The notes under the pieces were generated by a model, which made no database searches, had not been told where the DNA came from, and was given only the letters and a program-made list of their open reading frames with translations. A stretch of 29,766 nucleotides of DNA, taken from contig MGDH01000020.1 of assembly GCA_001790855.1 (NCBI GenBank), positions 1 to 29,766 of the forward strand, in the 5' to 3' direction. The position numbers and the translations under genes are program-made. This stretch comes from Candidatus Schekmanbacteria bacterium RIFCSPLOWO2_02_FULL_38_14 (lineage in GTDB: Bacteria > Schekmanbacteria > GWA2-38-11). This document shows, in pieces, positions 8,929 through 29,592 of the stretch. Each line of letters opens with the position of its first letter. Positions within the stretch are counted from its first letter, which is position 1.

Positions 8929-10959
8929 ATGAATCCAAAAATTAAAGATTTCTTATGTTTTCTGATATTAGCTTTTTTAGGCTTTATTGTCTACTCTAAC
9001 TCCTTTAAAGTACCTTTCCTCTATGACGACAGGGCTCTAATCCCTTACAGCAAATGGAATATAATTCCTTTTTACTTTTACTTCAGTAAAAATGACTTTG
9101 GAAATTTTTTAAAAAGCATATTCCAGACAAACAGGCCAATCCTCGCTTTTAGTTTCTTTTTAAATTACAAGTTAGGTGACTTAAACCCTTTCTCATACCA
9201 TATAGTAAACTTAACTTTTCATATTTTGACAGCTTTTCTTATATATTTAACACTTAAAAATATCATCGAGAATCCCCTCATCCCTGTGCTTTCTGCCTCT
9301 ATTTTTTTAGTTCATCCAATAACTGTTGAATCAGTAACATATATCTCAAGCCGGTCATCAATCCTGAGCGCTTTCTTCTATATAGTTCCATTTTATCTTT
9401 TAAGCAAAAAAAAATTAAAAAATTCTAACTCAATTATCTATTATATTTTATCAATCTTCTCGTACCTGTTTTCTATAGGATGTAAAGAAATTGGCATTAC
9501 CTTGCCTTTAATGCTTCTTATCTATGATTATTTTTTCCTCTCAGGGGAAAACAAAAAGGAATTAATGAAAAGAGCTAAAGGCTGTTATATCCCAATGGGG
9601 ATTCTTACATTAGTGATGATATTTTTAAGATTTAATTTTGCATTGTCTCTTCAAAGCCCGGATCAAGCCGTAAGAGGACTCTACCCACATATACTGACTG
9701 AGATATATATCTTCGCATATTATCTTATTAAATTTTTCCTGCCAATAAATTTAAATGTTGATCCAGATTTTAATCTGGCAAGTTCTTTACTCCAATTCAA
9801 TTTCCTTCTCTCTGCGATTCTTTTAGCATCACTTATCTTGATAGCATGGTATTTCAGGAAAAAATCTAAAATCCTTTCTTTTGCTATAGCATGGCTTCTT
9901 ATAACAGTTTCACCTCATTTTTTAATCAGGCTAAGGGACCTTATGGCTGACAGGTGGCTTTATTTATCTCTTATAAGTTTAAGCTTTTTATCCGGGACTG
10001 TTTTTCTTAAAACTTTGATTTTTTTTAAAGAGGGGGTTCTCAAAAAAACTTCTATTAAAGTAATTTACACAGGATTAATTCTATTTATCACTTTTTTATC
10101 AATACTCACCTTTAACAGGAATTTTGTATGGGAAAGTGAAATTGCTCTCTGGTCAGATGCAGTTAAAAAATCCCCCGATAAAGAAAGACCCCATAGCAAC
10201 CTGGGTAAGGCTTATACTGACAAGGGAATGATTGATGAAGCACTTGCTGAATTTAAAAAAGCGATTGAGATAGATTCCTCTTCAGGCCAGGCTCATTACA
10301 ATCTCGGAAATTGCTATTACGGAATGGGGAAAGTAGATGATGCGATAACGCAATACGGACTCTCGATAAAAGCCAATCGTAATTATGTGTTAGCCTATAA
10401 TAACTTAGGTATAGCTTATTTTTCCAAAGGACTTTATGAAAAGGGGGTAAGAGCCTGTAAGAAGGCAATAAAAATAAATCCTTTCTTATATCAGCCTTAT
10501 TATAATCTTGGGAATTACTATCAGAAAATGGGGAAAACAGATGATGCCATAACACAGTATAAAATCGCTTTAGAAATTAATCCCGGCTACGCAACAGCCT
10601 ATAATAACCTTGGAACAGTTTATTTTGCCAAAGGGCTTTATGGAGATGCAGTTAATTCATATATGAAAGCAATAGAAATCTCACCAAATTTTGCAGAAGC
10701 TTACAGCAACTTAGGAAATGCATATAGAAAAATGAATATCCCGGGAAAAGCGGTTCAGGCATACAGGAAAGCTCTGGGTATAGATTTTAATCTTTTTGAG
10801 TCCCACTATATGCTTGCTTCATCCTATATGCAGATTGGAGCTTACAAAAATGCATTTGAAGAATTCGGAATATGCCTTCGGTTTAGAACAGATATCCGCA
10901 CATCAGAAGATATAAGAAAAAAAATGAAGTCTCTGCAGGAAAAGTTAAAAATGAAATAG
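8929..10959 (+). CDS. Tmtc-like GT-C membrane protein with C-terminal TPR array
   Basis: Protein of 676 residues in two parts. Residues 1-400 form about ten or eleven membrane helices. The first external loop carries the acidic pair FLYDDRALI (D33-D34), later segments read HPITVESVTYISSRSSILSA and MADRWLYLSLISLSF. These are hallmarks of bacterial and animal TMTC-type O-mannosyltransferases. Residues 419-655 hold about seven 34-residue tetratricopeptide repeats of the NLGNAYxKxGxxDDAI...ALEINP type. Animal TMTC proteins transfer mannose from a lipid-phosphate donor to protein Ser/Thr; the bacterial role is unproven, and here I infer glycan or protein glycosylation at the outer face of the inner membrane. 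It is transcribed alone, divergent from leuCD and convergent with the GT-C gene at 10986. Confidence 0.85.
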   Translation: MNPKIKDFLCFLILAFLGFIVYSNSFKVPFLYDDRALIPYSKWNIIPFYFYFSKNDFGNFLKSIFQTNRPILAFSFFLNYKLGDLNPFSYHIVNLTFHILTAFLIYLTLKNIIENPLIPVLSASIFLVHPITVESVTYISSRSSILSAFFYIVPFYLLSKKKLKNSNSIIYYILSIFSYLFSIGCKEIGITLPLMLLIYDYFFLSGENKKELMKRAKGCYIPMGILTLVMIFLRFNFALSLQSPDQAVRGLYPHILTEIYIFAYYLIKFFLPINLNVDPDFNLASSLLQFNFLLSAILLASLILIAWYFRKKSKILSFAIAWLLITVSPHFLIRLRDLMADRWLYLSLISLSFLSGTVFLKTLIFFKEGVLKKTSIKVIYTGLILFITFLSILTFNRNFVWESEIALWSDAVKKSPDKERPHSNLGKAYTDKGMIDEALAEFKKAIEIDSSSGQAHYNLGNCYYGMGKVDDAITQYGLSIKANRNYVLAYNNLGIAYFSKGLYEKGVRACKKAIKINPFLYQPYYNLGNYYQKMGKTDDAITQYKIALEINPGYATAYNNLGTVYFAKGLYGDAVNSYMKAIEISPNFAEAYSNLGNAYRKMNIPGKAVQAYRKALGIDFNLFESHYMLASSYMQIGAYKNAFEEFGICLRFRTDIRTSEDIRKKMKSLQEKLKMK

Positions 10960-26762: not shown

Positions 26763-27236
26763 ATGGCGAATAAGACTCCTTTTGTAGAGAAACAAAGGGA
26801 TATACTGCTTGAAAGATTTGGATTAGCACTGCCTGATCTATATGAAAATTTAAAGGTTGTCTGCGGCAAGAATGAAGGTGAAAGGATTTTTAAGGCTATT
26901 GCTGAAGAAAAATTTAAAAAGAATTTACTGCCAAAAATAAAGGGGATTGACATTAACGTTCTTATGAACAGGGAAGAGGGTTTGTCATCACCTTTTGACT
27001 GGAAACTTAAGATTGAAGAAAAAACAGAAAATGGGGAAAAGGTCTGGTATGAAACCCTTTGGAATTGCCCGCATTTAAAAGCTACACAAAAACATAATTT
27101 ACCTTCTCCCTGTGAACCTGTCTGCTATACTGACTTCTGGCTCTTAGAGAAGTATGGAATCCTAAAGGCTAAACTAGTTTCTCACATTCTTGAGGGCGCA
27201 GAGGGTTGCTGTTTCAGGGTTATGAAGGTAAAATAA
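26763..27236 (+). CDS. Cys-rich protein resembling L-2-amino-thiazoline-4-carboxylate hydrolase family
   Basis: Protein of 157 residues behind an ideal AGGAGG site. The first 70 residues are helical. The second half shows WNCPHLKATQ (C102, H104), PSPCEPVCYTDF (C117, C121, D124) and EGAEGCCFRV (C149, C150). This order, CP-x-n-C-x3-C-x2-D-x-n-EG-x-n-CxFR, matches my recollection of the ATC_hydrolase/DUF6125-like families, whose founding member opens a thiazoline ring to make cysteine precursors. Most relatives in anaerobes lack a tested role, and the Cys/His set could instead bind a metal or cluster. The partner gene is the carbonic-anhydrase-like protein upstream. Confidence 0.55.
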   Translation: MANKTPFVEKQRDILLERFGLALPDLYENLKVVCGKNEGERIFKAIAEEKFKKNLLPKIKGIDINVLMNREEGLSSPFDWKLKIEEKTENGEKVWYETLWNCPHLKATQKHNLPSPCEPVCYTDFWLLEKYGILKAKLVSHILEGAEGCCFRVMKVK

Positions 27237-27324: not shown

Positions 27325-29592
27325 ATGAATGACAAAAAGAAGTGTATACTTTTACTACTTATTTTTATTTTTAGCTTCCTTGCCGTAAGGCTCCAGATAT
27401 TAACATCTAGAATCTTCCTGACTCAATGGGAAGAATTATACTCTGGCACAATTACAAGAGAGATTTTAAAAGGGCTTAAGATGCCGCTTTTTGATTACCA
27501 ACCTAAGCCCTTTCTCGGAGGACCTTTAATCTACGGAATAATAGGAGTCCCTTTTTTTAAACTCTTTGGAGACTCATATTTTTCTCTTAAATTAATTGGA
27601 CTTACCTTCTCTCTGGGAAGCCTCATTATTTGCTTTATCTTAATAAATAAACATTTCGGGCTTAAAGCAGCAACCCTTACCTCTCTGCTTTTTATCTTTT
27701 CTCCTCCACTTTATACTGAGACAACCCTTACAAGTTGGGGTAGTCACTTAGATTCAATTTTTTTCTCTCTTCTCACAATTCTTACTTTCTTTCAGATATT
27801 TTTCAAAAGACAAGAAGATCCATCTAAAGATAAGGAATACAACTTTTTTAGCCTATTTTTCTTTGGTTTAATATCGGGGTTTTCCATATATTTTTCATAT
27901 ATGTGCTTTTATTCTTTTCTGACATGCCTCTTCTTCTGGTACATCTTTGATAAGAAGTTTTTCCTTAGAAAGTATTTCCTAATATATTGCTCATCCATTC
28001 TGATAGGATTTAGTCCATGGCTATATTACAACATAACTCATTCATTCAGGGGTATAGATATAATTGCAAAACAAGGGATTGAGGGAACTGTAAATAGAAT
28101 AGACTTTTTTGCTAAATTAATAAGATATTTTTCATTCGATCTCTCTTACATTCTAAATTTTCCACAAATTAAAATACCTGGCATCCCCAATTTTCGTTAT
28201 TTTTATTACTTGATCCTGTTAATGTCATTATTTTTTGTAACATGGGAAAGCAAAGATACCTTTAAGAAGATTTTTAAAACCTTAGTCTCTGTCCAAAAAA
28301 AACACCGAATTTCTTCTGTAGAAATATGTAAGGAAAGTTTTTTTATCGTAGCATTTATTCTTTTTACTTTGATATATCTTTTCTCTGGATTTGAAACCCT
28401 GTTAGCTGATATTGACCCATTAGTAGGCCATAGATACATAATCCCTCTTTTCCCAATCTTTTTCATAATCATAGCTCTTTTTATTTCAAAATTAACAGAT
28501 AATAAAAAAACAATTAAGAAAATTTTTGGTTATGGAATACTAATTATATTACTCATCTTAGGTGCATTCAGCAATAGCAGGATTGGCTATCGCGAAGGTA
28601 TGACCTATTTCGATTTAGACGGCTTTTCATATACCACCCTTGCTTTACATACCTACTACAGGTTTGGAAATGACTTCAAAAAATATGTAGAGCAAGGGGA
28701 AAAAATGGATCCGGACTACAAACATTTTTATTATCTTGGATTAGGAAAAATTGTTAATGGAAGAGGGCTTGTGTGGGAAAAAGGTTTTGAAGAATATAAG
28801 ATTTTTGAAAAATGGATAAGTAAGATTGATATCATATATCAATCTTATTATTATGAAGGGATAGGTTTTGGTGTTGGAGAAGATATAGTTTACAATCAAT
28901 ATAAAAAACCTTTTTTTGCTTTAAATAAAATCCCTGGAAAAAAACGATATTATGCATATTTAGGGGTAGTACGTCTATTGGAGGAAAAAAAACTACCTAA
29001 AACAAATATATATGAATTAATAAAAGTAATTGATAGAAAATATAGGAAGTTTTTTTATCCTATATGGGGAAAGGAAGTTCTGGAAAAAAGTGCAGACTTT
29101 GAAAAAACTATTGCTTTTGTAGAGGGTTTGGAAAAAGAGGAAAAGGAAGGAGTTTACAAAGGGTTAGGAATTAAACTTTTTAGTAGATCAGATTTTGACA
29201 TAAATAGATTTACTAAAATAATAGAGCCCTTCCCAAAGAATTCCAGAGGTTTCCTCTACGAAAGTGCAGGAGAGGAAGTTGGTTTTTTAAACAAAAACCA
29301 TATTAGCAGGATTCAGGATATTATACATTCCCTTTCTGAATCTGAGAAGCAGTCAGTCTACAAGGGAATTGGAAGATTTGCTGCAGAAAGATATGGTTTC
29401 AGCTTTAAAAAATATTCTGATTATATTCAAGAAATAGCCCCTCGCTACAGAGTTTACTGTTATGAAGGAATAGGAGCTCAAATTGCTCTAAGATTTGGAG
29501 GCAATCCTGAAGCAGCTAATTTGATAATAAATGAATTGCCGGTAAATATTAGACCTTCTATTGAAAGAGGGTTTGCAGAAGAATTAACATAA
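27325..29592 (+). CDS. GT-C-like membrane protein with nine C-terminal ~34-residue repeats
   Basis: Protein of 755 residues. Residues 1-425 hold about ten membrane helices. The first external loop reads TQWEELYSGTITREI, an acidic pair where PMT-type enzymes have D-E, and then PKPFLGGPLIYG, so it is probably a GT-C relative. From about residue 465 to the end runs a soluble array built on Y-Y-x-G-x-G. Its key position falls at residues 472, 512, 547, 580, 613, 647, 681, 715 and 749, spacings 40, 35, 33, 33, 34, 34, 34 and 34. The period equals that of TPRs, but the TPR consensus is weak. By analogy with the Tmtc-like protein at 8929, the tail may bind an acceptor protein outside the membrane. 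No Shine-Dalgarno site is clear beyond GGTGAT. Confidence 0.75.
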   Translation: MNDKKKCILLLLIFIFSFLAVRLQILTSRIFLTQWEELYSGTITREILKGLKMPLFDYQPKPFLGGPLIYGIIGVPFFKLFGDSYFSLKLIGLTFSLGSLIICFILINKHFGLKAATLTSLLFIFSPPLYTETTLTSWGSHLDSIFFSLLTILTFFQIFFKRQEDPSKDKEYNFFSLFFFGLISGFSIYFSYMCFYSFLTCLFFWYIFDKKFFLRKYFLIYCSSILIGFSPWLYYNITHSFRGIDIIAKQGIEGTVNRIDFFAKLIRYFSFDLSYILNFPQIKIPGIPNFRYFYYLILLMSLFFVTWESKDTFKKIFKTLVSVQKKHRISSVEICKESFFIVAFILFTLIYLFSGFETLLADIDPLVGHRYIIPLFPIFFIIIALFISKLTDNKKTIKKIFGYGILIILLILGAFSNSRIGYREGMTYFDLDGFSYTTLALHTYYRFGNDFKKYVEQGEKMDPDYKHFYYLGLGKIVNGRGLVWEKGFEEYKIFEKWISKIDIIYQSYYYEGIGFGVGEDIVYNQYKKPFFALNKIPGKKRYYAYLGVVRLLEEKKLPKTNIYELIKVIDRKYRKFFYPIWGKEVLEKSADFEKTIAFVEGLEKEEKEGVYKGLGIKLFSRSDFDINRFTKIIEPFPKNSRGFLYESAGEEVGFLNKNHISRIQDIIHSLSESEKQSVYKGIGRFAAERYGFSFKKYSDYIQEIAPRYRVYCYEGIGAQIALRFGGNPEAANLIINELPVNIRPSIERGFAEELT

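Follow-up and report, generated by a model that had tools for sequence, protein, structure and literature searches.

A putative undescribed helical repeat on a GT-C-like membrane protein of Candidatus Schekmanbacteria

Gene content of the window

The analyzed window is the whole stretch of 29,766 nucleotides from contig MGDH01000020.1 of Candidatus Schekmanbacteria bacterium RIFCSPLOWO2_02_FULL_38_14. Near its end, on the plus strand, lies a gene (27325..29592) coding for a protein of 755 amino acids, where a GT-C-like membrane half (residues 1 to about 425) is followed by a tail of predicted helical repeats (residues 465-755). The stop codon is separated by 174 bases from the end of the contig, and the downstream context is missing. 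The upstream neighbours, a hexapeptide transferase gene and an ATC_hydrolase-like gene, name no pathway; the latter, directly upstream (26763-27236), codes for a protein of 157 amino acids, whose match to ATC_hydrolase is sub-threshold (E 2.5e-5).

The genes found on the minus strand between 20277 and 25744, coding for an LPG_synthase_TM protein, a GT4 glycosyltransferase and a Lon protease, are ordinary by Pfam. A second membrane protein, of 676 amino acids, is encoded at 8929-10959: it features a long TPR array (TPR_1, E 9.5e-52), and is a possible TMTC-like counterpart. The original prediction had drawn a parallel between this protein and the repeat-tailed one. The parallel is confirmed for the TPRs of the former only; its membrane half, compared by BLAST with those of the repeat-tailed family, shows no relation.

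Repeat units in the C-terminal tail

In the tail, eight full units, which begin at residues 465, 505, 540, 573, 606, 640, 674 and 708, are followed by a truncated ninth at 742; the unit-to-unit spacings are 40, 35, 33, 33, 34, 34, 34 and 34. The unit consensus reads YkxffYeGhGxxhAxxxgxxxxxhhxhhxxhpxx. All units are on the plus strand. Unit 1 (residues 465-504, 28717..28836), found by the unit HMM, contains an insert and is predicted to form helices at 463-479 and 485-498. Units 2 (505-539, 28837..28941), 3 (540-572, 28942..29040), 5 (606-639, 29140..29241) and 7 (674-707, 29344..29445) were delimited from both the unit HMM and the structural model, unit 8 (708-741, 29446..29547) from the unit HMM. 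Unit 8 is the closest to the consensus (33 bits). Unit 3 is the weakest in sequence, scoring 9.6 bits, or -1.7 bits when the 755-aa protein is left out of training: its assignment rests mainly on the helices of the model. The truncated unit 9 (742-755, 29548..29589) is 14 residues long and includes helix A alone, predicted at 743-754; it may be seen as a capping helix.

In units 4 (573-605, 29041..29139) and 6 (640-673, 29242..29343) the first glycine of the motif is replaced, by I580 and S647, respectively. The initially proposed series of nine recurring glycines is therefore to be reduced to seven (472, 512, 547, 613, 681, 715 and 749). Where the first glycine is lost, the later one is kept, as in YPIWG (position 580) and YESAG (position 647).

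The presence in the tail of about nine regular repeats of about 34 residues, already proposed from the sequence alone, was borne out by two comparisons with shuffled sequences. BLOSUM autocorrelation of the tail has its maxima at lag 68 (-0.02) and lag 34 (-0.29), above the best lag found in 500 shuffles (-0.37). A unit HMM trained without the 755-aa protein finds eight units in the tail, seven of them with a positive score; their sum is 114 bits, against a value of 11.4 for the best of 1000 shuffles. In the membrane half the same HMM finds no units. The training set of this HMM contains orthologous units of close paralogs. A cleaner and more independent test is therefore provided by nine more distant family tails, outside the training set: each of them scores better than all of its 300 shuffles (300/300).

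Mean identity among the units of the 755-aa protein is 17%, which indicates an old repeat array, rather than a recent tandem duplication.

Predicted structure of the tail and comparison with repeat libraries

Structure prediction by AlphaFold was run both on the full protein, with an alignment of 15 family sequences (pLDDT 85.6, pTM 0.85), and on the tail alone, with 13 sequences (pLDDT 89.7, pTM 0.90). The tail is modelled as a confident solenoid: in both models most units contain a helix A of about 18 residues, which bears the YxGxG motif, and a helix B of 7-9 residues. An alpha-alpha solenoid is thus well supported as the predicted fold of the tail. Of the anticipated unit, two helices in about 34 residues, the number of helices and their packing into a solenoid are found in the models; the helices, 18 and 7-9 residues long, are unequal.

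No known repeat family could be recognized. No Pfam or NCBIfam repeat model is matched by the full-length protein or by its tail (Pfam at cut-off), and the tails of relatives, among those scanned, give only sub-threshold and inconsistent Pfam matches. Searches of PDB sequences with the tail or its profile found no match; when the tail was compared with PDB structures by Foldseek, and with the BFVD viral library, nothing reached E <= 0.001. In the VIA-align lists for the tail no Z of 8 or more is present, which is not proof of a new fold. A literature search gave no match for the terms used. FYRC, Clp_N and many other Pfam matches, obtained with an idealised consensus made of one 34-mer repeated four times in tandem, were discarded as artefacts of that construct.

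Of the two outcomes that would have spoken against the proposal, a known family scoring well with the units and a model lacking a solenoid, neither was obtained. As far as sequence libraries (Pfam, NCBIfam, PDB sequences) and predicted structure go, an undescribed helical repeat carried by a GT-C enzyme is supported.

The membrane half

Pfam assigns the membrane half (residues 1-430, 27325..28614, plus strand) to PMT_2 with a weak score, below the cut-off (E 5.7e-4; 20.6 bits against 26.1). Its predicted model, compared by VIA-align with known structures, reaches Z of 25.1 with ALG12, 23.0 with ArnT and 18-23 with STT3, AglB, PglB and PMT; about 330-365 residues are covered in the superposition on ALG12, ArnT, STT3, AglB and PglB. 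A GT-C fold is well supported by this model, and the anticipated joining of a GT-C-like half to the repeats is confirmed at that level (Z 18-25). Active-site positions of ArnT, ALG12 and PglB/STT3 are also kept. Identity to these enzymes is as low as 10-15%, approximately, and they carry other C-terminal domains, without this solenoid.

Conserved residues were evaluated in 27 family members from two phyla. An acidic pair, E36-E37 (27430..27435, plus strand), is located in the first extracytoplasmic loop, at the position of the GT-C catalytic site: E37 is invariant, and at position 36 almost every member has E or D. In the second extracytoplasmic loop, H141-x-D143 (27745..27753, plus strand) corresponds to G-N-H-x-E in most members, with H at 141 in 85% and E at 143 in 93% of them. 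R370 (28432..28434, plus strand), located ahead of the penultimate TM helix, is conserved in 85%. GT-C enzymes feature an acidic motif in EL1, and an arginine in EL5 which contacts the phosphate of the lipid donor (PMC7801869). E36-E37 and R370 correspond to these elements by position, as judged without a solved structure.

Ahead of the last TM helix is a loop of cytoplasmic type (388-398), with 4 K/R against 1 D/E. According to the positive-inside rule, and to the GT-C template, such a loop would place the tail outside the cytoplasm.

Family members and genomic distribution

At least eight genes of the family are present in the same genome (G000; 2.68 Mb, 43 contigs): one each on contigs C20 (the gene described here), C21, C24, C11 and C9, and three on C10. 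Paralogs differ in the length of the tail and in the number of units, and the GT-C half is kept. One of those on C10 (L081:16518-19790), 1091 amino acids long, is a fusion of three parts, where a PIG-L (GlcNAc deacetylase) domain (Pfam E 7e-22) accompanies the repeats and the GT-C half.

Family genes are also found in relatives belonging to the same family and order. A scan of genome contigs with a conserved alignment picked up a single locus, which belongs to Candidatus Schekmanbacteria GWA2_38_11; no match was obtained in such a scan with a single-protein query. When the tail profile was compared with 386 genomes, clear matches were found only in the four genomes of the Schekmanbacteria order (G000-G003), along with two marginal ones (E 0.003 and 0.007). 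The marginal match in G115 falls inside a GatB-like gene, and was attributed to chance.

In a second phylum the GT-C half is present in seven out of seven genomes, which make up the whole sample of that phylum. Its longer tails match those of Schekmanbacteria in a profile comparison (E 4e-7, 0 out of 40 decoys); 10 of their 13 invariant columns are glycines, and eight of these glycines form four GxG pairs. The fusion of a GT-C half to a repeat tail is thus conserved in two phyla. As a family, these proteins are well supported. Other GT-C genes of the second phylum (L061, L064, L065, L069) have a short tail that bears GhGxG motifs along with recurring cysteines; such short tails match the main ones only weakly (E 0.003). 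The profile of the second-phylum tails, compared with 289 genomes, finds matches in that phylum only, and neither of the two tail profiles, searched against 386 and 289 genomes, gave a convincing match in any further phylum. Genome sampling is thin, and absence of the family from other phyla therefore does not follow.

The surroundings of some members were also inspected. Paralogs on C10 and C9 are located among GT2 glycosyltransferases, GT-C genes of the PMT_2 type and sulfatases; the latter recur close to repeat-tailed GT-C genes on both contigs (L081:1772-3844, L085:10116-13035), and sulfatase-like C-termini adjoin two members of G002 (neighbours of L017 and L020). The C11 paralog overlaps by 14 bases an asparagine-synthase-like gene, and a similar pair, overlapping or abutting, is found in G002: this suggests that the two genes form a conserved pair (L083:7805-11564 and L023). 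At another G002 locus (L030, C4:556681-560265) two repeat-tailed GT-C copies are adjacent, with nearly identical C-termini, probably as a result of a recent tandem duplication.

Possible role of the tail

GT-C enzymes bearing solenoid tails are already known; the repeat described here is outside the catalogued families searched. TMTC1-4 are GT-C O-mannosyltransferases, with a C-terminal TPR solenoid in the lumen (PMC7801869). As in TMTC1-4, a GT-C half is followed by a two-helix solenoid of about 34-residue units, lumenal in the former and probably extracytoplasmic here, and the acidic pair of EL1 and the arginine of EL5 (PMC7801869) have their likely counterparts. Unlike those of TMTC1-4, the repeats are non-TPR in both sequence and helix lengths, and the protein is bacterial; no close sequence relation of the 755-aa protein to TMTC1-4 is apparent.

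The favoured role, to which an even chance may be assigned, is that of an active extracytoplasmic GT-C enzyme, using polyprenyl-phosphate-sugar, where the non-TPR solenoid would hold or position the acceptor outside the membrane, as TPRs may do in TMTC enzymes. The membrane half would work on the outer face of the inner membrane, with a polyprenyl-phosphate carrier as its source of sugar. Its catalytic loops would be overlaid, outside the membrane, by the solenoid and its approximately nine Y-x-G-x-G units, and there the acceptor, which could be a protein to be secreted or a glycan under construction, would be held or positioned. Differences in the tails among the eight or more genes of a genome would provide each enzyme with its own acceptor. 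The nature of the donor, the binding of the acceptor and specificity set by the tail are all suggested by analogy; in particular, the acceptor-holding role is proposed on the basis of the TMTC and GT-C precedent. Conservation in the tail mostly concerns structural glycines and tyrosines, and is uninformative on a binding site.

The strongest rival explanation, rather less probable, sees the tail as a scaffold for partner proteins or a structural cap, docking the GT-C enzyme into a complex for the assembly of surface glycans. Solenoids usually bind proteins, and other glycosyltransferases and sulfatases do adjoin paralogs; that the tails vary in length and unit number, on a constant GT-C half, also speaks for this role. 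No single partner gene, however, was seen to adjoin all paralogs. Moreover, C-terminal extracytoplasmic domains of GT-C enzymes commonly serve the handling of the acceptor, as is the case for PglB and AglB, a point against the scaffold.

Relationship of the repeat to other families

A wider hypothesis, speculative and on the whole improbable, is that the Y-x-G-x-G repeats make up an undescribed alpha-alpha family, found in at least two phyla as extracytoplasmic, acceptor-reading tails of GT-C enzymes, and having in DUF1702 (PF08012) a distant soluble branch. DUF1702, known from enediyne gene clusters, carries recurring unit-like stretches of the types YEGAAMxLAL, VGxGWAxAR, FDQGLGRxLWF and xxGVGLACTYAG (for example YEGAAMGLAL, VGLGWALAR, FDQGLGRCLWF and SGVGLACTYAGG). 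Recurring xxGhGxxhA stretches, with weak, sub-threshold scores, are observed in DUF1702 proteins (L051, L052, L053, L054). Two natural tails match PF08012 with E of 0.12 and 0.26; scores of 10.6 bits, for one natural tail, and 7.1 bits, in a genome search, are below the curated cut-off of 25 bits. Comparison of the tail and DUF1702 profiles gave E 0.0096, with a probability of 4% and 0 out of 40 decoys. DUF1702 differs from the tails in its irregular spacing, and in the examples seen a membrane half is not present. These tests are interrelated and second-phylum tails give no signal in the profile comparison with DUF1702; the link is therefore to be taken as a lead only.

More doubtful is a derivation of the tail from TPR, or from SEL1 or PPR, by strong divergence; the protein would then be a TMTC-like enzyme of bacteria whose TPRs have decayed. 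The period of 34, the two helices per unit, the same position on a GT-C enzyme and a loose likeness in the spacing of G and A would agree with it, and designed PPRs are among the best PDB rows of Foldseek (E 3.5e-3, but TM 0.22 and rmsd 22 A). Yet no Pfam model of TPR, SEL1 or PPR matches the tail of the 755-aa protein, or any further tail among those scanned, even with E allowed up to 10, in contrast with the positive control, where the protein at 8929 matches TPR_1 with E 9.5e-52. Profile-profile comparison of the tail with the TPRs of that protein gave only noise (E 0.3; 11 out of 40 column-shuffled decoys were equally good). In addition, TPR units are formed by two nearly equal helices of 12-14 residues, differing from the 18 and 7-9 residues of helices A and B. 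The tail is thus not an ordinary TPR array, as the original prediction had stated.

A bacterial relative of the proteasome/cyclosome (PC) repeats of Rpn1 and Rpn2, which form a tight, curved, glycine-rich two-helix solenoid, is very improbable: the richness in glycine is common to the tail units and PC repeats, and the VIA-align alignments that span nearly the full tail are mainly with Rpn1/Rpn2 chains (about 240-265 residues, Z 5-6), but at a rmsd of 9-10 A and with Z < 8, values which according to VIA-align may reflect a common arrangement only, so that the likeness to these cytosolic eukaryotic proteins is considered an analogy, and PC_rep (PF01851) has no match over the cut-off in four family-bearing genomes, nor any match from the tails scanned, and PDB sequences gave none.

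Implications

If the GT-C enzyme with an acceptor-holding, non-TPR solenoid is the correct reading, a second repeat, unrelated in sequence, would occupy in bacteria the position taken by TPRs in TMTC enzymes, and a solenoid outside the membrane would appear as a repeated solution for acceptor handling. A genome with eight or more such genes would offer a natural series on whether tails set specificity, and a repeat left blank in current libraries would gain a name.
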